DNA from: Styela clava
Taxonomy: Eukaryota; Chordata; Ascidiacea; Stolidobranchia; Styelidae
Assembly: GCF_964204865.1 (NCBI RefSeq)
Contig: NC_135263.1
Span: forward strand, 15,793,426 to 15,857,425
Direction of reading: 5' to 3'
DNA: 64,000 nt
Under the pieces are notes generated by a model. That model was not told where the DNA came from, ran no database searches, and saw only the letters and a program-made list of their open reading frames with translations. The translations under genes and the position numbers were made by a program. This document shows, piece by piece, positions 16,551-64,000 of the stretch (position 1 is its first letter; each line of letters starts with the position of its first letter).

Positions 16551-17137
16551 TATAGCACAAATGATTGTTAAATGAATGTGATGTTACCGTATATTGCTAA
16601 TTTGTAGATTGTCTCAGAACTTGCAAGTCACCCGTTAACCCTTCAGCTTCAACGCCCACGTGAATGAAGATGCGTTAAAAATCTCTATATGTTTTTATTC
16701 GTATATTTCCACAACACACAGAATATAAATCTTATAACATTTATCCAGACTAGCTTAGAATGGTTTACATCGTCTTCTCTCACATCGTCCTCCTTCGAAA
16801 GATATCGGAGTCGTATTTATACGTCGATCGTACATCTAATTAAATACTGTAAACGTGAGCTCGTGATTCACGTTATAAACAGAAACTCCTATTATCTCAA
16901 TAAGGGTAATTAGGTACATCGTACGGATGGGAACTTAGAGATAATTATTTCAATCAGTGTCAAAGGTCTTGAGAATATAAATTTTAATTTGATAATGAAT
17001 GGATGGAACATGTTGTGGGTCATAAAACTGGCGTAATTTGATTCCTACGAAAGTCTTTGTTCGGATTTTGGGAAAAATTAACTTTGTTTTGATGATTTCA
17101 ACATGAAATGGGGTACATTTGGGGGTTAGTTGCTATA
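16551..17137 (-). repeat. Long terminal direct repeat, copy 1
   Basis: 587-bp repeat. In the minus-strand reading it is the 3' repeat, preceded by the purine-rich tract. It holds a 74-codon frame that is identical in both copies, which reflects repeat identity and is not evidence of a protein. Confidence 0.8.
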
Positions 17138-18482: not shown

Positions 18483-19069
18483 TATAGCACAAATGATTGT
18501 TAAATGAATGTGATGTTACCGTATATTGCTAATTTGTAGATTGTCTCAGAACTTGCAAGTCACCCGTTCACCCTTCAGCTTCAACGCCCACGTGAATGAA
18601 GATGCGTTAAAAATCTTTATATGTTTTTATTCGTATATTTCCACAACACACAGAATATAAATCTTATAACATTTATCCAGACTAGCTTAGAATGGTTTAC
18701 ATCGTCTTCTCTCACATCGTCCTCCTTCGAAAGATATCGGAGTCGTATTTATACGTCGATCGTACATCTAATTAAATACTGTAAACGTGAGCTCGTGATT
18801 CACGTTATAAACAGAAACTCCTATTATCTCAATAAGGGTAATTAGGTACATCGTACGGATGGGAACTTAGAGATAATTATTTCAATCAGTGTCAAAGGTC
18901 TTGAGAATATAAATTTTAATTTGATAATGAATGGATGGAACATGTTGTGGGTCATAAAACTGGCGTAATTTGATTCCTACGAAAGTCTTTGTTCGGATTT
19001 TGGGAAAAATTAACTTTGTTTTGATGATTTCAACATGAAATGGGGTACATTTGGGGGTTAGTTGCTATA
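18483..19069 (-). repeat. Long terminal direct repeat, copy 2
   Basis: 587-bp partner of the repeat at 16551-17137, with the same termini. In the minus-strand reading it is the 5' repeat, followed by the possible primer-binding site. Confidence 0.8.
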
Positions 19070-19690: not shown

Positions 19691-22600
19691 ATGGCGACCG
19701 AGGAAAGAGACGATCTAGCAGAAATCGAACAGCCCAAAAGCATCGATTTGTTACTGCGAGCAGGTATTTATAGTATAATTTGGGATTCAAACAAAGTTCC
19801 TTACTAATAGACGATGCTGTGAATACAGAATTGAAAGGAAATACAAACCCGGAAGCTGTGATTTTTACCGGTTCACGTCAGTTTTTTACCCGGAAAAGTT
19901 ATGAACTTCCTGGTTTGAGATTGACGAATTACGCATACCGTAGTTGTAATTGGGTTCGTCTTGATCATTCATATGCACGATTTCATGTCCAAATTACAGA
20001 ATTATTCTATATTCTGAAAGCACGGTACCGGTACTACATATTTTGCACAAAATTTGGAACAACAGAACTACCCATATTCTGATATTGCTGTACTGATGTA
20101 CCGGTACGCTACCTTACTGCTGTACTGTACTTCCATACCTATATAATCACAGTACGGTATTCCATAAAATGTGAAGTACTTGAAAGTTGTGAATACGGCA
20201 GAAGAGTGCTGAAATTAGTTTTTGTTGGTATTATGATCAAAATGTTGAATTCTTTCCTGTCATGAATTAAAATAGCTTCTGGGCTTTGCAACTGAATTAA
20301 TGCTCTTTACATCCAAACCTAACAATGCAGTCTAAATCTTCAATAAATATTTTGTTAACCATTCAGTTAATTTTACATTTTCTATTTAGTTCAAGTGAGC
20401 GCTGTCGATACAGGAAAAAGCAAGAACAGCAGGGAAAATCCAGTTTTAGCTAATGGAAGTAGGCCTACTTCTGCTGGTTATGGATTGATCACTACAGAAG
20501 AGTCTCATAATATAGAATTCCAAAACCTCACGGTATGAGTTTTTGATGAATGAATTGCTTATTTATAGAGCTTGATAATTAATCTCCAGAATGTCAAGAC
20601 ATTTCCAAATGATTGTAAAAGCTATGTCATACTTTTCTATGTAGTGATAAAACATTGGTTGAATGTAGTCGACTCATCTTGCTGTCTTGGGATTATTACA
20701 TGCATATTCAATAATGAACCATTTCATTTTTTTTCACGTAGACATATAAACACATACAAATTTCACATTTCAGGTGAATGTAGAAGACTTCGCAGATGGC
20801 AATGCAACAGATGCCTTGTCATGCATTGGTCTTAGCGAAGATGTTGTCACAGATATCACCGAGTGTTCGGAATCAGAACTTGTACATCATGCTACCAATG
20901 TATTATGAAATTTGTATTTCAATAATAGGCTATCTCATTTATTTATGTCCAATGCATTTGGTTGTAAAATGCGACAGAACACCAAAAATGCCTACCATAA
21001 TTTTGAGAATTTGAAAATCTTTAATGTGGCCTTTTGTAAGCTAAGTCACTTCATATAGTGGTAGGTGCTTGTATTATAATAATTTTTAAACTAAATTCCA
21101 TTTCATTTTTAAAATTATTATTCATAAGTTATTTCACTTTTATTCAGGCATTTGAAACTTCTGGAAATGTTGAAGTAGTTGTTGATGAGAATCCTGCTGG
21201 CCAATATTCGGGCCGTTCTGCATCAGCTATTTTGGATGTTGATCCATTATCATGGTCCGAAGACGACGTTTATATCTGGATGCTTCTTGTTGCACAACTC
21301 TTTCATTTGGATAAAGCAAAGGTTGGATGAGTTCTTTGATGGTGTTATCAGATGAAGCTTGATTAAATGATAAATGAATTAATTAATAAAGTACATTGAT
21401 TTACAATGTTCCTCATCCTGATATATTCCATCACATGAGGAGGTATATATTAAAAATTTAATCGTGAACACATAATGAATTATTAGAATACTACGCTCAC
21501 TTCATTGGCTAAAGGTTTTTTCTTTATAATTTTAGGTAAAGAATCTTCACATAAATGGCAGAGAACTTGCAATGATAAGCAAACAGGAATTTATTGAACG
21601 TTTGCCTCATGGTGATGTATTGTGGGCTCACCTTGAATATTTGAGATTGCAACATGGTATGTCACTGCTCTGAACTCAATCTGTTACTTTTTGCATCCTT
21701 AATTCATAAAGACTAAGAGGATTTGGACACAAGTAGCCACTGATATATAATTAGCTATTGCAAATTTTAATAGGACGGGGATCTTTACAGCTAGGAATAG
21801 CCTACTCAGTGAAGTGGTGGTCATAAGGGTTGCAAGCCAACGCATGGTACTCATAGACCAGGCCATTACATCAAACGATAGTCGGTGGTATTTTGAATTT
21901 TTCACTTTACTTGTGCAAAATCATGCTATCTAGAGTAGGCCATATTGCTTTTTAGCTGTAGGTTCTGCCCAGATGTGGTGACATTAATAAAATTTTGAGT
22001 TGATGAAAAAAACTATTACAGAGTCAAGTTAAGAATACTTTTTGGGGTCAAAGAATTGTCTATTTCCAACAAGTATGGTTGTAGAATAGACTACAACACT
22101 CACTTTAAGATATTTAATGATAAAATTTTTCACCCACAAATAGATGATTGCTGGACTCCTCGCCGCCTTAGGGAGGTTCACGTATCCGCTGGCCGGGTAT
22201 GGCTCCATGCCCCATCAAGTCCATGCATCTGAAACAAATAACTGGCTAATTAATCTCATATCTGACATGGACTGATAACCGGACCAGAGACCGTGGTTCA
22301 CCATATGATAAAGCAGTCCTATTGGTTTTCCTCTCCCCCGGGATAAATATGTAAATCCTATCTTATTTTAGCGCCAGAAAGCACAACAGACAAGGGCAGA
22401 GCGAGAAATCGACAGAACATGAAGAGGTCTAATAAAAATAGTAAATCAAACACAGGTGAATCTTTAATTTATCTTTAAACAGATTTGTTATTTCAACCTA
22501 TAATTAAGGATCTTGATATTTTTGGAAAGCATGATTGCCAGAAGTTGTTATTTACTGCTTAGTGTTAGTTAGTTTACTGTTAGTTACTGATTTTCAACAT

Positions 22601-25600
22601 GTTACCTTTGTGAAAGAATTGTGATATATACTTTATTTAAAGCACAAAAATGCATGTTTCACTAATAAAACAGTATGGTATTAACGTAACAGTATACAGG
22701 ATTTTCAAATTGAGCTCATCTTCTTCAATATATCTAATTATCAGCTCCAAAAACTAAATATTCAAAACAAGAACAGAAGAGACTTGCATTGGAAACATTG
22801 AATGCCATCACCCAAGATAAAATAAGCAAATTTTCGACTGAAGATTCAAAACTGAGTTTTGCTGACGATGGCATAACAGATGCAAAAAAGAGAAAAACGT
22901 CTGGAAATAAGATAAAAACAACAATGAGACATAAAAGTATGTTCACCCTCTCTTATTTTACAGCTTTTTTTTTAGGTGTTGCAACTGAGAACTCAGTTGT
23001 GTCATTCTTCTGATTTCTCCAAATCTTTTAAAATAGCTCATTTAGTTAGACTAGGCCACTCACTCAGGTCTCAGATAGGTAAATATTTTCTCCCCCCCCC
23101 CTCCCTGGCTATGCTCCTTCCTTTATTCATTTTGACTGTTTTTATTCAAATCAACAGCACATGATTCCTAATTCAATTCAACTTCATGCTGTAAGGTAAC
23201 ATGCCTAAAAATGTAGTAGTATTTCACATGTTTGCAAATTGTGATTGGTTTAGAGTGTGGAGTAGAACCATGGATAACACATTTAAAGGACTGTTGCAGA
23301 GGGATATTTAGAGAGCAAAGGAAATATTACTGATTGAATATTTATGATAAAGCAAAATGGGAATATCCCCCTCCATTACGCATTAACAAGTTTTATTGAG
23401 CAAAAGCAAATTTGCCAAGAGCCATATTGACGACTATTTGATGATTTTTGCATATTATTCTGTAAGTTTAGAGTTGTTTTGTAATTTTTTTGGTAAATTT
23501 TTAGGCTCAAGCTATTTTCTATGGCAATTCATGTTGGCTCTTCTTCAAGACCCGATCACTTGTCCTAGGTTCATCAGGTAAGAAAATTTGATTATATTCA
23601 AAACGTGTGTAACTGTATTCTGTATAGTGATATTTGTTTATTTTAGGTTAGTTTAATGCAGTGCTTGAAGCAGGGATGTCCAATGGTCACGTAATAACAT
23701 TTGCGTTTTTCTGAATCAAAGAATAGTTTCAAGAGCAAATAATAAATTAATGCCTGCGAGGTTAGTGTCCTGTCAGACGCCCAGCAACTATCTGCCATCC
23801 TATTGGCCCGTTTGTTTGCTGCGAAACAATTTATACAAATATAATGTTCAAGTTTTCTGGGGACTAATTTGGGCATTTACAGGTAAAATGCGTCCCTATG
23901 TACGGGATTTTCAACTTACGAAGGGGCTTCCGGAACGAATTAATTTTGTAAATAGAGTTTCTACTGTATTTGCTAAATTAGAGTTTGCATTGTTTATTCA
24001 GCACTACTGTACCGTTCTTTTAAATCTTGATTTGTTGTTTTCAAGATGGATGGATGTATCGAAGGGAGTTTTCAAACTTGTTGATACAAAATCTGTTTCG
24101 TATTTGTGGGGAAAACTTAAAAATAAACCAAGCATGAATTACGAGTCACTGGGAAGGGCATTGAGGTAAATAAACATAAATATTATGTTATTTTGTTCAT
24201 ATTTTTATGTTAACTACCATGAGTTGGTATTGGTCGTAATATATTGTTTAATGAAAGAAACGTTATTTTGTGAGGCGAATTTGATTTTTTGTGTTAGTTG
24301 ATTCTGCATGTCAATATTTAATGGAATATTGAAAAATTATTTTGTCTCGATATTCTTGACAAAGTAGTCACCCGTGTTCAAAGCCTTGTTTGAAGCTATC
24401 CAGGTCTGATTCTAATAATATTTTGAATTCTTTTTAAGGTACTATTATCAGAAAGGTATTATGAGAAAGGTTGATGGAATTCGGCTCGTTTATCAGTTTC
24501 GTTTTCTACCTAAAGTTTTGCAACTTGTTCCTGATGACATCGAACAACAATCACCAGAAACTGTTGATTTATCAAGTGAGGCCAATATACTATTTCGGCA
24601 ACACACAACGGCATCAAAGTTTACACTATATCATACATTTAATATTAATAGAGGGGGTATTAGTTGCAACTTATGCTTTTAACAGTAATCATATGTTGTA
24701 TTCAACTATAGAATGCTGTTTTCATTCAGTTCTAGGCATCATAGTTATGTCTACAAATTTCTTTTTACAGGATGACCCAAATAAACAGAGTCCAAGTCAT
24801 TCGGAGCATATTCTAGAAAAGGAGTGGGGGGGGGGGGGGGCAAATTATGGACCACGGGTCGGGTCTGGCAAATAAGAGTTGAATAAATTTTCACTATAGT
24901 AAATAGAAATCTTTTTTGGGGTTGCCTAAACCTTGCTGTATTCAGTTGGAGTTCCTAATTTATGTTTCTAATCCCTTTCATTTTTTTTCTATTTTGGTGT
25001 TAGTTTTAGTAAATATCCATAAAAAATTGACGCAATGATTTTTTAACAGGGGTGACAGATTGGCCAGAAGCAGAAAAAGAATATGTCAAACATTTACTTG
25101 TCGATTACATCGTCCTACCCTTATCTGATGGAGCACCAGAATTATTGTCATATATTAGAATGCCCAGAATTCGACCACATGTTCAAAATGTATGTTGATT
25201 TAGGAATATTTGTAAATATTTTATGAAAATACCCCAAATTCATGAAGTTTTGTTCATGAGTTTTCTATGAAGAAGAAAAATTTCTTACCTGGAACTAGCT
25301 TACAAATTAAACAATTATTTTTTGAGGATAGTTGTGAAAAGTATGAATTTATTTGTACAATATCTTCTTTTTTTTAGCTTTCATCAAAACGTTCTTTCTG
25401 TACTGGAAATAATGCTGCAAATCTGCAACCCATCGCAAGTTCTGGAATGTTTTTGCAACCGAAAAACCAGTGGTATAAATTGGAAATTGATCCTACAAGT
25501 TCAATTAGTCAGGGTAATTATATTTACTTTACTAAACAGTTGTTGAATCTGAATCAAGACTTATTTTATTCTGAACACAAAATGCAATAGAGAGTATGAT

Positions 25601-28365
25601 TTTTGTGTTTTGCCAACCAGAAGCTGATCATTCTGACAACAAAAACATAAAACACATATTTTTTTTGTAATGACAATCGGCAGTATCGAGAAATAGAAAG
25701 TGTTGAACTATTTCTTTCTACTCAAGTTCAGCGAGCCATATTGAATCGATTGAGTGGGCCATAATTGGCCCACGACCGCAGTCTAGGAACCACTGGATTA
25801 GAAAGAGTTACTATACAACCATATATAGTCATGAGATCAACTCCATTTATAAGTGTTGTTTTTACGCAGTTTGTAAAGTTGGATTTATAAATGTGATTCC
25901 ATTTTTATATCAATAAATATATCATAAAGGCAGTGTGACGAGGTTTATTATAAATAGGGAATTTATGAAAATCTCATTGATCTGTGAAATTTCTTTTATC
26001 TTTTCGATAAATATAATTCTTTATTTAGATCAAGGGCGACAGGTTTTTTTGTGTCAGCCGGGTGGAGCTGGCATAAATGCATCTGCTGGAGCAAAGAAGG
26101 ATAGTTTAGACCAAAGTACCATACCACCTCAGGTTCACATTCAAACTTCAACCTCCAGTCACCTTTGTCATATATCACTTGATAGTCAAGATAATAAAGT
26201 GACAGAATCATCAGTCAAGACTGCAGATGGAAAAAGGAAAGTTCATTCTGGATCAATCTGGGTTTGTCTTTTGCTCCATTTTTTTATCTGGTAAATTTAC
26301 TAACTAATTTGATCCTTAAGAAGTAGATTCAACGGATGGAAAAGTAGAGAGTAAGAGTTTCAGTATGGGAAATTGTGTTCTGGTATAAAATGTCTAATGT
26401 CAAATTTATATTTCAAAAGGGTTCACAGAAATTTTTAATTAATTTGATATTTTCGTGTAATTCTAAACTGAATTGAATTATGGAATACTCAAACTCTGTG
26501 CGGTTAATGCCATGAACAAGATGTTGTCATTATAGGAATGGGTTGAGAATTTATCAATCTACCCACAGTTAAAATTTTATGGCCGTGAGTTTCTGAATTG
26601 ACTTCCAAGTTTCTGTGTCTATATTAGGACGTGTCCCTTTCAATGGCTATGTTGTGAAATCTCTGAAAAATTCTTGCTCAACTTTATTAGCAGTACATGC
26701 TCTTCATATATTTATATCATAAAATATAATATTCTCTTCTTGTATCATCATCTCCAATTTTGAATAATTGCATTGTACCAAAAATTTGTTACCTTGTGCC
26801 TTGTTTTCAATGTTTTAATTTTATACCTGTAGAGGTGTACGTAAACGGTGTTGGTTATTCTCTGTTAAAATCAGTTTTTTTCATTCTATGCAATTTGCCT
26901 AGTTATTATTGTATTGATGATCAGGTGCCTGGAACTTGCATTATGAGAGAAATTGAATGGACAGACAAGACAAAGGAGCAGAATGCTGCATCTTTCTTGT
27001 TGTTACAAGCATCGTTAAAAGCAAAGAAGGATGTCAAATCTGACAATAAACCTCTGCAGGTATGAAAATATTAGGTTTTCTCTTGGTAATCGATCCGATG
27101 TGTCATTGGTAAATAGCCTACTAATTTATTTGATTGCAATCCTCCAGAAGGAAGTTGTTTTTCGAAATAGTATTTACCATTCGATTTTATCATTTACATT
27201 CAAAATGTTGCCTTTGGTGCTTGCCTATGTCACTTGTCACCCGTGTTTAATTTTTAAGTGCATTAAAAATGTGAAAATGCTTAATTTTGTGGATACAGTT
27301 TATTAAATTGTGAACTATGAATAATCTCGTTTCCCATTCTTTATTTCTAACATTTCTATATTACTCAACCAGGTTGAAGTTCTTACTACATCAGCAGAAA
27401 CTGATAGCAGCTCTGAAGAGACTAGTTCAAAGGTATGCACCATTTTTGAAATTTAAAGTTCATATGATTGCCTAGCTCCTGGTACAAACCCTATGCTAAA
27501 GATAAAGTGTCGCAATACATTTACAAAATATTTGAAATATGATTTACATGGAATCTGCTCTCGAGCTATATACTTGACTGTTAGGGCACTGTTTAGCGTC
27601 GGATTGGTTTCATTCATATTATTCACATATATACAATGGTTGAATGGCCAATATCAATTTTTGCAGGGGAAAATGAATTCAGCACCAACAACGAGTGCAA
27701 CCAATTTACCCAAGTTTGTAGGGGTTGTCAAACCGATTCCGGTTGTAGGAAAAGCAATTCCGATTGGCACAAAACCTTTAATCATAAATTCGATAGCTGG
27801 TACAAATGCAATATTACCAGAGAAGAAGCAAAATGTTTTATCAAAGGCAAATACAATAAATGTCGGCGTACAAAGTTCATCAATTAATAGTGGTAAGGCT
27901 GCTAAGACTATGCATGGATCTCAGTCGTGCAATGCAAGGCGAAGGCAACTATCTTCGGTTTTGCGGTTACCTGCAGCAGAGAAAAAGACAATTCACAAAA
28001 CCCAGGACCGGGCGAAAGCTGTCACAAAGAATGGAACTCTTGCCAACGTCATCCATACTATTAAAAGTTCAGAATCAAACAATTTGGCAGGAGCGAGTAA
28101 CAAAACATCTAATGCAGCATCGCCTAGACCGCCTTTACCCCTTTCCTTGGTGAATAAACTTAAATCTGCTGATTCCGTTGTGACGTTGCCACTGTCAACA
28201 ACTGAAAGTGGAAAACATATTTTGACTCTTCCTGTGTCAGCTGCAGATGGTGAAGAATTGGGTGACAAGTCTGGTACTAAAAGCATTTCTTATCAGGTTA
28301 CTATGTCTGATGATCAGATTATATTGACGTTAGATAACAGTGCTGAAAGCAGTGGGGAGTGGTGA
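19691..28365 (+). CDS. ELF: ETS transcription factor: Pointed/SAM plus ELF1/2/4-type ETS domain (881 aa)
   Basis: Sixteen exons: 19691-19763, 20390-20532, 20774-20899, 21148-21321, 21536-21656, 22372-22455, 22745-22936, 23505-23577, 24046-24165, 24439-24575, 25050-25189, 25378-25513, 26029-26261, 26925-27059, 27373-27432 and 27667-28365. All phases join (2646 nt). Residues about 144-212 are a Pointed (SAM-type) domain: [42 protein letters not shown], closest by memory to GABPA. A Lys-rich segment ([13 protein letters not shown]) precedes the ETS domain at about 306-390. That domain has [35 protein letters not shown] and [13 protein letters not shown] with both recognition-helix Arg, followed by VYQF, which are signatures of ELF1/2/4. 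The long Ser/Thr-rich tail ([11 protein letters not shown]-like stretches) is probably a regulatory region. It should be a nuclear DNA-binding regulator of GGAA sites. Vertebrate ELF1/2/4 lack a Pointed domain. Confidence 0.88.
22141..22371 (+). repeat. 5'-truncated SINE abutting an exon
   Basis: The body of the tRNA-derived SINE, from the GATTGCTGGACTCCTCGCCG block to the tail GATAAATATGTAAATCCTATC. It ends directly at exon 6 of the ETS gene (exon start 22372). The tail supplies most of the polypyrimidine-like run before the acceptor AG. Confidence 0.8.
25700..25795. mobile_element. hAT-like element fragment, one end
   Basis: The segment has GGGCCATAATTGGCCCAC and a terminal TAGGAACCACTG, a typical inner-to-outer end of a CAGTGGTTC-type hAT element. 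No matching left end was found, so it looks truncated. It lies in an ETS-gene intron. Confidence 0.45.
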
Positions 28366-34536: not shown

Positions 34537-36397
34537 TTATTTTTCCTTAGCCCACAAGTATTTGGAAGTTCCTCTAATCCTCGTCAACATTGCTGCGTTA
34601 TTTTGTGCAATATCGTAAAACTGGCTGCAAGAAATGTCGTTAAAATTGTAAACTAAAGTGAGTATGCTAGCAACGGACTCAAATAGAAAGTTTTCGCGTT
34701 CTTTCGACCACTGTGGTTGCATTAAAGAGAAAATGCGCGAAAACGTTGGCGTTATGCGAAATAATGCTGAAGTAATATTGTGCGATCTTTATCAGTTCGC
34801 TGTAAAAGTCCTGGTGCTGCAGGATTTGAAATATTCTGTCCATCTTTCATGTGCCATGAGTTTACAGTAAGAAACTGAATTGGAATGAAGTTGCTTTTCT
34901 ACGAACTTGCATAAAGTTTGGAATTGGTCGAATAACTTGGCTTCATCAATCGAAACATTTTTTGCAAGCAGATACTCAACGCACGGTTCAACAATTCTCA
35001 TCCAGTCAAAGCATTTGAATTCCTCAAACGAAGCTGTCCATTTTTCGAGGTATTGTACGCAAGACTCGTACAATAAAGCCACATCTGAGAGAAATACATC
35101 ACATTCACGGCCTACGCAATTCAGATTTAATTTGGATTTGTATGAACGTGTGTTTTTTTCTCTCTTCAATCGTAGATTTAACAGTGCTAAGACAAGCTTT
35201 GATTTCAATAATTGAGGATTTTGAATGTTCAATATGCCTAATTTGGCCATTAAACACAGCAACAAACGATTGCAAATGTTTTAAATACAACTCACTCACA
35301 GGATTTTCATAAAATCTTTTTAGAGCAACAGGTGGCTTTTCAATAGACCGGAAATATGACTGCAGGGCAGGGTGCACCTGAATCATTCTAGATAAACTTG
35401 AATAAAGTGATAGCCACCTGGTCACGCAGTGGGGAAGTAGTTTTTTATACTGTGTATCCACAAAGTTACCATAATCCTTCAGTTGTTCTGTGCGTACAGT
35501 GTATATGCTGGAATATTGGTACGTTTTGTAAATAATATTTTCCACATCAATGCTCGTCTGATTGGTTTCATGGTGTAAACAGTTATTCAGAACATGTGCA
35601 GGGCATCCTACCCCAATCAAATTTGGCAGGTTGATTTGCAATCGAGAAAATACGTTATTGCCCTTTCTAAAAGCCAATCGGCCGAAGTTAGTATTACAGT
35701 TATCGGCAGTAAATGAAACACATTTCTTAAACAGATTCATTTTGGTCGAAGTTTCTTTAATATCATTCGCAATTGTTGAAGATTTCTCATTCGTGGTACT
35801 TTTAACTTCAAGCAACTTAGACTGCAACCCACCATTTTCCCAGTCATGATATTGTACAACTATCGCGAAAAGTTTTGTAGCGTTATGATTACTGCCGTCT
35901 GTCGCTACTCCGAGATACAAAATATCATGTTGTTGATTAGTATTTAAGGCATGTTGAACAGTCATCGGGGCTAGAATATTATTCACAATAGCTTCAACTT
36001 TTGTCCGACCACAAAAATATTTTTTTGAAATATTTGAATCTGGAAAAATCTTCTTCATTAGATTTGACGTACAATCGTTAGATCTGAAACTCTGGTGATG
36101 TTTCACACAGTGAAACGCCATTATAGCTTCGGCGACAGCGACATTTCCTTCTATTTGAGTCCCAGGCGCACAAAAGTAGTCGGTCACCTTGGCTGATGAT
36201 GTCTCTCCTCTAACAGATGTTTTATGCTTGGAACTCTCAACGTGCAACTGTAAGCTGAGTTTGCCCTTATTCGCCACAGAAACGAAAGTACCGTAGCCAC
36301 AAGAAATGCACTCCGCTTCGCTGTCAGTTCGACCTTTTCTAAAGCATGGGTACTTTTGCTTTAGTTCCTGAGAGAAAAAGGTTTTCCTTTTCTGCAT
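34537..36397 (-). pseudogene. hAT transposase pseudogene
   Basis: Minus-strand frame from 36397. It starts with a BED-type zinc finger region (ECISCGYG, then LHVESSKH), followed by hAT catalytic-core features (FTADNCNTNFGR, GCPAHVLNNCLHH, LPHCVTRWLSLYSSL). Near an A run at about 35155 the reading continues in a different frame (REKNTRSYKSK, then CVGRECDVFLS), which indicates a frameshift. That second frame meets two adjacent stop codons at about 34789-34794, and homology appears to continue beyond them to 34537. With one frameshift and tandem stops it should be inactive. An intron explanation is unlikely because no splice sites fit. Confidence 0.85.
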
Positions 36398-36553
36398 AAT
36401 TTACTGGGTTTACAAGCGCAAGGATCTGCCACAATCGAAACTTCACGGAATTGCGATATACAAAGTGAAGTGACGTAAAACAGAATTGCACAATAAATGC
36501 GATTTTTACGTCATAAACGATTGTGCAGATCAATTATGCATTTAACCTCTAGG

Positions 36554-60879: not shown

Positions 60880-62453
60880 TCAATTCGGCAATGATAGCGG
60901 CCATTCCAGGTTTACGGAAACCACATCTAGTGAAAGAATGTCAGTGTCAGCACCAATCAAAATTCCAACATGTGGTATTGTTCGGCCAAAATCTCCATGC
61001 ACAAATTCCTTCACATAGGTTCCAGCTTGTGTTGTCATACATAGTTTGAAAAATATATACTCTTTTGGAATGAACTTTGGCATTTTAACAATTTTTGCGG
61101 CATCGGTTACATCAATCATCTCAACATCAAGTTCAAAAATAGTTCGAGAACGAACAGCAAGATTTCTTCTATGCAATACTCTCAGTGGAGTCTTTTGCTC
61201 AATTTTAATATTTTTCAATTCAGACAATTTGAGTATGTTACTTTTCAACGTTAGCTTGTTAACTTTTGGGCGTGAATGACTAATCTTAGTGTAGCACACA
61301 GCAGAGTATGATTTGGTTTTTCCCTCTTCTCCATCTTTCAAGTTTTTCGTTTCATTTTTACTTACAATTTGAAGATCTCTTACTTTTATTATATCAGTGA
61401 CCTCATTAATCTCAGTTTGCAATTTTTTAACTCTGTTTTTTTCTTCAATACATAATCGTGGATTCACTAATTCAAGCAAAAACGGTCTTCCATTACCCAA
61501 CATTCGAACATCAATATCTTCTCGTCCAGAAGATGAAAAATTATAAGAATCTGCTTTGAATAATAGTTTAATCGGATCTGCAATATATTCTTGAACTGAC
61601 ATTTCGGATATTCTTTTACCAGATATTATCCATGGTGTTTGCGAAAGTTCACGTGAATATTTGCAATACCTTCCGGCCACATAAATGGGCGTCCGCAAGA
61701 TTTTAATTTGGTCCAAAAACACAGAATTTTGAAAATAACTTTGTTCAATCAAGTCGTCTAAAACCTTGGGACTCAATTTTGATGAAGCTTGACATACCGC
61801 AGATAACGTAAATATTGTCAGATCATTTCTTGGTCTCTTCCTAGTCATCCCTTCCAATACTTTTTTAGATTGCTTGAAGCATTCAGGTAAACATTTTTCA
61901 ATTTTCGGGAGCAAGTGAGATTCTGTAAAACTATGTTTTATTACCACAGTAACTTCAAGTTCAGCATCATCATTGTATACTGCTTTTGAACAAAGAGCTT
62001 TTTCCAATTTCGGTTCAAGAACAATTTTGAAAATGTCTTTAACATCTAATCCATTTCCATTTCGCTTGTGATCCGAAATAACACTCTTATAATGATGTTG
62101 AACGAAAGCTCGAAAAAGAATAAATTGGACTGGTTGCGATATCATCAATCTGAAATTTCTAAACATATATTGTTCAGTTTGTATCTTTTGTGCTATATTT
62201 TCAACTGAAGAATGAAGAAACTGATCTTGCAGCATGCCAAGACATGAATGACAAAAATGTTTTATTTCGCCACATTCACTGGAATCTAGTATTTGTTCTT
62301 TGGAGAATATACTGGGCCATCTTGACATGAGGTTTTCCTCAATTTCTTCCTCTGATTTCCTCAATATTTCATCATCTTTAACATTAAGAAACATAAAAAT
62401 GCATCGGGGGCATAGATTTTTACCCATCATGATGCCATGTGACAAATGATTAT
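60880..62453 (-). CDS. PUS10: tRNA pseudouridine synthase Pus10 (main exon; first exon not found)
   Basis: One long exon of 524 codons after a split codon. It begins at an acceptor (TTTTAATAG) and ends at the stop at 60880. An N-terminal CxxC (NLCPRCIFMF) and a second CHSC (about 60 residues on) form the zinc-binding site of the family. The catalytic domain has YVAGRYCKYSRELSQTPWI, then the SSSGREDIDVRMLGNGRPF block with the catalytic Asp, KTPLRVLHRRNLAVR, and TQAGTYVKEFVHGDFGRT near the end. Pus10 makes pseudouridine in the T-loop of tRNA. Human PUS10 has 529 residues, so only about ten N-terminal residues appear to be missing. They should lie on a short exon between 62454 and 63456 or farther upstream, which I could not identify. 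Confidence 0.95.
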
Positions 62454-63456
62454 CTATTAAAAAAAACAATAAATTAGGAAATGGCAGTGATATGCTAAAA
62501 AAACGTATACTCTTATAAAAAACGCAGTATGGTCGATTTATAGAAATGTTGATTGCAAATATGTTAATACATTTTAGAATAGCTTAATATGAGCATTCAA
62601 CAAGCTCCAAGTCCATGTGGTGAATATGCAAAGTTCATATGTTGATTCTATCCAACATTCTCAAAGATTTGATGCAAAATATTTACTAAGTAGGAAGGTA
62701 AATATATGATTGAAACATGGTTTGCACAGAGTCTTTTTATTTCTGGGAGAATCCACCAATACACAAAATTGAAGAAAACATGTATTTACATCCTGCCAAT
62801 GCCCGATTGACATTGATTTCTATTCAAGTGAAAACAGCAACACTTCCATAAAAAATTTAACAGGGCAGTCCAAAAATCAATTATTAACAATGCATCTATA
62901 ACAAAACATTTTCTATATAATAGTGATGCTGAGCAAATTTTTGAAATAACAGTCCATCTTTTCATATCTAAACTATTCAAGAAACTTGAAGGTGTACATA
63001 GGGATCACAGGCTGAAGTACCAACTCTATTCTATAAGCTTCCCAAAGGTATCTCCAACTATATTTTTCTATTTTAAGACTATGAATCAGAAATAGCTGTC
63101 ATGTTTATCACAGAAACTTTAATGTTGAATGTTTTATGCTAATTCACAACTCTGACCCTGAGCTGAAATGTCAACTCCAATGTAACACCTAAAATCACAA
63201 GTATATGACAAAAGTGAATGGCTTTGGTCTGATACCAATTTGTTACATCTTCAAAAGTGCACATTCAGACATTAACGTTCATACTATTTTATGAACTGAT
63301 CAGCATTTACATTTATGCAATTTCACATGAAAATTATTTATGCATTTCTCATTTTTAAACCAGGGAATAAGTATGGGCATTTGAGTTTACCTCAAAATAT
63401 ATGCAGACATGTGGCGCTACCTGGTAGCAAACAATACCACATGTAAAATATAGGAA
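62454..63456. other. Gap between PUS10 and HAUS1
   Basis: This region should hold the first PUS10 exon and the HAUS1 3' UTR. Small ATG frames followed by GT were tried but none joins in the required phase (one leftover base). Confidence 0.4.
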
Positions 63457-64000
63457 TCATAGACTAGGTGCATTTGCACCAATTTCACCAAGTTTATCAG
63501 AAAATTCTTTATCAACTTGTTTAAACTCAATTTTCTTTTCTTCAAGTTTTATTTGAGCTTGAGCAAGACTTGGTTGCAGATCTTTATATGAATTTAACTG
63601 AAGTCTTAACGGCTTCAATTTCATTTCCATTTCGGAAACTTCATTTCCTAAAGATACTAATGTTTCATGCGATATATTGTCTTCATAACCAGCTGATGAA
63701 AGTAATTGTTTATTTGACCGTAATTCGGCGTCATATTGTTTGATCTTTTTTGAATGAAATGAAGTTGATTTCTTTGTGTTGCTGCTCTCTTGCTGTTGCT
63801 GCTCTTCTAACGATTCAAGTCGTGACAGCTCACGTCGCCAAAACTCCTTTGTATTAAGTATATCAGAAAATTTACTTTTATAATTTTGTATTCTTTTTTG
63901 ACTTGAATCAAGCGTTATCTCAGATTCCTGCAACTCCTGGCTTAGATCGCTTAAAGCCAAAGTTAAATTCAATGCACAGGGTGTTATAACATCCAATGCA
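63457..64000 (-). CDS. HAUS1: HAUS augmin-like complex subunit 1, C-terminal part (runs off the window)
   Basis: The frame is open from the window end to the TGA at 63457-63459 (about 180 codons), and its 5' part lies beyond 64000. It is a coiled-coil protein, with Glu/Gln/Lys/Leu-rich heptads and a Gln run (EEQQQQESS). The tail matches HAUS1: SHETLVSLGN, KPLRLQLNSYKDLQPSLAQ, AQIKLEEKKIEF and a final acidic/basic helix ending GEI. HAUS1 belongs to augmin, which recruits gamma-tubulin to spindle microtubules. It is tandem with PUS10 on the same strand about 1 kb apart, which gives no proof of a shared transcript. Confidence 0.8.
   Translation of the reverse strand, partial: ALDVITPCALNLTLALSDLSQELQESEITLDSSQKRIQNYKSKFSDILNTKEFWRRELSRLESLEEQQQQESSNTKKSTSFHSKKIKQYDAELRSNKQLLSSAGYEDNISHETLVSLGNEVSEMEMKLKPLRLQLNSYKDLQPSLAQAQIKLEEKKIEFKQVDKEFSDKLGEIGANAPSL

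Follow-up and report, generated by a model that had tools for sequence, protein, structure and literature searches.

A predicted gene of Styela clava that combines a Pointed domain with an ELF1/2/4-type ETS domain

The window, i.e. the whole stretch of 64,000 nucleotides of Styela clava DNA that was analysed (contig NC_135263.1, positions 15,793,426 to 15,857,425 of the forward strand), contains a gene of 16 exons at 19691-28365 (+), with a predicted protein of 881 amino acids and a TGA stop codon. An initial annotation had placed this gene at 21148-24575; the seven exons inside that span (exons 4-10) and the three introns that it named agree with our 16-exon model, but the gene is longer, with exons 1-3 starting from 19691 and exons 11-16 reaching to 28365. 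The exons and the evidence for each are as follows.

19691-19763, +, exon 1 with the start codon (ATG, open frame, GT donor)
20390-20532, +, exon 2 (AG/GT borders, open frame, codon score)
20774-20899, +, exon 3 (borders and frame, codon score)
21148-21321, +, exon 4, N-terminal portion of the Pointed domain (SAM_PNT) (gene model, Pfam)
21536-21656, +, exon 5, C-terminal portion of the Pointed domain (gene model, Pfam)
22372-22455, +, exon 6, 84 bp of basic linker, phase 1 at either end (gene model, codon score)
22745-22936, +, exon 7, 192 bp of basic linker including KKRK, phase 1 at either end (gene model, codon score)
23505-23577, +, exon 8, N-terminal portion of the ETS domain (gene model, Pfam, PDB match; codon score not distinctive)
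24046-24165, +, exon 9, central portion of the ETS domain (gene model, Pfam, PDB match)
24439-24575, +, exon 10, C-terminal portion of the ETS domain (gene model, Pfam, PDB match)
25050-25189, +, exon 11 (gene model, codon score)
25378-25513, +, exon 12 (gene model, codon score)
26029-26261, +, exon 13 (gene model, codon score)
26925-27059, +, exon 14 (gene model, codon score)
27373-27432, +, exon 15 (gene model, codon score)
27667-28365, +, exon 16 with the stop codon (gene model, codon score)

In the predicted splicing, the borders of all 16 exons are GT-AG, the phases match and the frame is open throughout. The unbroken phases reported earlier between the Pointed and ETS exons were recovered, with exons 4-10 showing incoming phases of 0, 0, 1, 1, 1, 2 and 2 and no stop codon. 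Coding character was assessed with a codon model trained on 1,097 codons from three other genes of the same genome and, for 15 of the 16 exons, no more than 6 of 500 length-matched intron segments scored as high, although stop codons lower the intron scores, so that the test partly measures openness of the frame. Both linker exons score as coding (6/500 and 0/500 intron segments as high for exons 6 and 7 respectively). The score of exon 8 was reached by 289 of the 500 segments, though this exon encodes the start of the ETS domain, and in exon 1 another frame was slightly ahead (0.44 compared with 0.40). We also observed a stretch repeated at window positions 16910-17044 and 18842-18976, with identical open reading frames 1932 bases apart, the second copy lying approx. 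0.7 kb upstream of exon 1.

A Pfam search of the spliced protein returned SAM_PNT at amino acids 138-210 (E 6.1e-15) and Ets at amino acids 310-389 (E 7.4e-30), and nothing beyond these two up to an E value of 1. The Pointed domain was therefore found in exons 4 and 5, as had been proposed, and in the same protein as the Ets match. Sequence comparison indicates that this is a real gene that encodes both a Pointed domain and an ETS domain of ELF1/2/4 type and is predicted to be spliced into one mRNA.

At the level of sequence, the ETS domain is of the ELF1/2/4 type. Compared with PDB chains, it scored highest with human ELF1 (138.3 bits) and ELF2 (137.1 bits), followed by SPDEF at 90.8 bits, with lower scores for EHF (84.8 bits), ELF3 (70.2 bits), ELF5 (68.6 bits) and GABPA (67.7 bits); it is identical to ELF1, and likewise to ELF2, at 56/80 positions, and none of the 22 other rows exceeds 58% identity. 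Judged against the motifs given in PMC2789578, the core motif MNYETMGRALRYYY is present, and the domain has GRALR where most groups show SR. In a tree of 25 rows, built without L017 (the second SPI gene) and without two partial sequences, an ERF-like domain (L013) and a second ESE-like copy (L019), the window domain groups with ELF1/ELF2 at 97/94. In a tree of 17 rows, which further omits the tunicate's own ELK, three ERG rows, the ETS-like row from C2, the ERF-like row from C4 and both the human and the tunicate SPI, the ELF clade has 91/93, below the tool's star. Grouping of the ETS domain with GABPA was rejected (p-AU 0.00025) and grouping with the ESE pair was weakly rejected (p-AU 0.040). 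The family assignment of the initial annotation is thus upheld, and the separate ETS phylogeny that it had suggested as a check likewise returned an ELF clade, with one of the two Pointed-bearing families, GABPA, rejected and the other, ESE, weakly rejected.

For the Pointed domain, sequence comparison gives moderate support for a grouping with GABPA. Its best single-copy PDB match is GABPA, with 56 bits, followed by ETV6 (36.6 bits) and ETS2 (35 bits); PDB chains in which ETV6 is present two or three times rank higher, their single copies reaching at most 32.6 bits in the three alignments shown. In a tree of 13 rows, constructed without an ESE row and without a SAM-like match at C3:14035778 (28 bits), the domain groups with GABPA at 87/85, below the tool's star, and within this group it joins the tunicate's own GABPA at 91/88, both tunicate end branches being long (0.74 and 0.5). 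Identity is 26/64 to the tunicate's own GABPA and also 26/64 to human GABPA, the latter being, like most human rows in the Pointed comparison, a provisional sequence; the ELF3 Pointed domain, also provisional, gave a low score. In addition, the loop that leads up to the conserved (D/E)xL is shortest in the window domain and in GABPA, the ETV6, SPDEF, ETS and ERG rows having one or two extra residues there. The earlier suggestion that the Pointed part is closer to GABPA is therefore favoured by the best score and the clade, but over 67 columns five alternative placements stand, with p-AU values of 0.087-0.255, including those with ETV6 (0.187), with the ETS group (0.159) and with SPDEF (0.087), and one in which the two GABPA domains are kept together without the window domain (0.255).

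We then place the gene among its relatives in the same genome, for which the 376.6 Mb assembly was searched exon by exon, so that the counts for Ets and for human ELF1 are lower bounds. At least 20 Ets matches were found and assigned by motif and partly by tree: GABPA, ELK, four of ERG type, ESE type (in two places), SPDEF, PEA3 (two exons), ETS (two exons), an ETS-like gene (two exons), two of SPI type, two ERF-like and the window gene; the ERF-like row takes no settled position in the ETS tree. A search with human ELF1 gave 13 places, all among these 20, and the window exon was first by identity (64%) and fifth by score, its rank by score being due to the single exon matched there. No second ELF1/2/4-type gene was recognized among the 20 Ets matches or the 13 places, both being lower bounds. 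Eight SAM_PNT matches were found, that of the window included. The separate GABPA of this tunicate is encoded by one frame of 410 amino acids with GABP-alpha, SAM_PNT and Ets matches (L001, 1339-2568 (-); contig C1 of G000, near 6161363-6162037). As the frame is uninterrupted, its coding part looks intronless, which would point to intron loss or to a retrocopy that took the place of the original gene. Four ERG-type ETS domains (L003, L004, L006 and L007) lie on one contig, C4, three of them with a nearby Pointed match, which suggests a lineage expansion, and two SPI (PU.1)-type ETS domains (L016 and L017) lie approx. 17 kb apart on contig C1 near 8.22-8.24 Mb.

The combination of a Pointed domain with an ELF-type ETS domain is unusual when compared with vertebrates, but is already in print for one tunicate. 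According to Wang & Zhang (2009, PMC2789578), who covered ten species, the Ciona intestinalis protein cisam8 is the single ELF exception with both ETS and SAM_PNT, the other ELF members, vertebrate ELF1, ELF2 and ELF4 among them, having the ETS domain only; these authors infer an ETS-only ancestor of ELF, a copy that lacked SAM_PNT, and they cite Laudet's scheme, in which ELF and ESE are united in one subfamily. The window gene has the same two domains and the same ETS subgroup as cisam8 and is also from a tunicate, a likeness drawn from the published description and not from sequence. With this exception on record, its SAM_PNT match, which departs from the usual Pointed-less state of ELF1/2/4, does not exclude it from the ELF members. 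A 2023 survey of molluscs states, in a single sentence of its main text, that one mollusc ELF “underwent a loss” of PNT (PMC10664356). This implies that other mollusc ELFs, which belong to the same subfamily and are known here from text and not from sequences, have PNT. Lg in that survey is presumably Lottia gigantea. As the architecture is reported for Ciona and implied for molluscs, the novelty of the window gene is small; in the literature searched, we met no paper devoted to the difference in Pointed presence among ELF genes.

Outside the ETS domain, which is shared with vertebrate ELF1 and ELF2 at the identity given above, little resemblance to vertebrate ELF proteins was detected. Their conserved N-terminal region constitutes the Elf-1 N-terminal family, for which the window protein gave no Pfam match up to an E value of 1. 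Similarly, nine comparisons of its N-terminus, linker and C-terminus with provisional sequences of human GABPA (one region) and human ELF1 (two regions) gave scores that 30-179 of 200 shuffles equalled, and no LxCxE motif was found in the window gene product. With GABPA the gene shares its best-scoring Pointed domain, but it has no GABP-alpha domain and its ETS domain is of another family; the ESE group (ELF3, ELF5 and EHF) likewise combines Pointed with ETS, but its scores with the window ETS domain are at most 84.8 bits.

We consider it somewhat probable (approx. 0.58) that the window gene is a tunicate orthologue of ELF1/ELF2/ELF4, with a Pointed domain for docking, a basic linker and an ELF-type ETS domain, and that the Pointed domain is old in the ELF line and was lost in vertebrates. 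ETS family domains bind GGAA, and the present one would be expected to act at GGAA sites. The Pointed domain would most likely act, by analogy with GABPA, as a monomer to which a kinase or cofactor docks. When aligned with ETV6, it has glutamate at the position of A61 and valine at that of V80, which we take to be the positions of the polymer interface in ETV6; glutamate is presumably also what GABPA has at the A61 position, which makes a monomer likelier than a polymer of the TEL/Yan type. The linker has 24 lysine or arginine residues in 93, with a KKRK cluster at amino acid 288 that is a plausible nuclear signal, and both of its exons keep the frame if skipped, so that isoforms with a shorter linker are possible.

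With regard to descent, the Pointed domain would have been present early in the ELF line and later lost in vertebrates; the ELF line of flies is not known to have it either, presumably also by loss. The architecture of cisam8 and the implied mollusc domains (PMC2789578 and PMC10664356) speak for this, and the ETS-only ancestor of Wang & Zhang, together with the Ciona protein being the only SAM_PNT-bearing ELF in their ten species, speaks against it. The gene brings to two, with Ciona, the tunicates on record for an ELF1/2/4-type factor that bears a Pointed domain. Were the domain to prove general among invertebrate ELF genes, the ETS-only state of vertebrate ELF1/2/4 would be a loss, contrary to Wang & Zhang, and little could be read about the history of ETS families from whether a Pointed domain is present.

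An ancestral architecture and a lineage-specific fusion had been put forward from the outset, and they proved the right pair of alternatives, between which the 67-column Pointed tree does not decide. The second of these, in which a Pointed domain of GABPA type was added to an ELF gene within the tunicate line and the fusion was absent from the bilaterian ancestor, appears to us unlikely, though a serious contender. The Pointed domain scores best with GABPA, shares with it the lack of one or two residues before (D/E)xL and joins the tunicate's own GABPA, a grouping which, if real, speaks for capture, as does PMC2789578, in which SAM_PNT is restricted to a Ciona ELF and an ETS-only ELF ancestor is inferred. 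However, holding the two GABPA domains together without the window domain was not rejected, the tunicate end branches are long, PNT is implied for mollusc ELFs by the sentence in PMC10664356, and an intron interrupts the coding sequence of the ELF Pointed domain but not the tunicate GABPA frame, which makes the present GABPA copy an unlikely direct donor of the exons. More doubtful still is the fuller version, in which the captured domain would have given ELF sites a GABPA-type docking module independently of any Pointed domain that mollusc ELFs may have.

Very improbable, in our estimation, is that a neighbouring Pointed-only gene and an ELF gene have been read as one. Splicing across the two parts is a prediction, the linker exons match no Pfam family, an internal methionine such as that at amino acid 301 could start an ETS-only product, and AATAAA occurs between the parts at 21986, 22431 and 22664, although it also occurs within several introns. 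In contrast, the end of exon 5 and the start of exon 8 are both in phase 1, the linker exons between them are multiples of three in phase 1 and score as coding, and the same architecture is described for Ciona (PMC2789578). That the gene is a divergent ESE or GABPA gene can be practically dismissed despite its GABPA-like Pointed domain and the union of ELF with ESE in Laudet's scheme (as cited in PMC2789578), GABPA being largely refuted by the missing GABP-alpha match, the p-AU value of 0.00025 and the separate GABPA gene, and ESE by scores of at most 84.8 bits compared with 138.3 bits for ELF1, a weak p-AU value of 0.040 and the ESE-type ETS domains elsewhere in the genome.

Other features were observed in passing. 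On contig C9 (L031), an exon of cellulose synthase-type glycosyltransferase is followed on the same strand by an exon of glycosyl hydrolase family 6, an order that resembles the tunicate CesA fusion (CesA plus GH6); according to the cited part of PMC6523144, tunicate CesA is a fusion, and its GH6 domain occurs in all eight tunicates and is absent from the 35 other animals examined. By this criterion the genome is that of a tunicate; a COX1 search gave no match. In the window, a frame of 431 amino acids at 35108-36400 (-), with no Pfam match at an E value of 0.01, looks transposon-derived by eye only, and Pfam identified coding stretches of PUS10 at 60883-62583 (-) and of HAUS1 at 63460-63999 (-).
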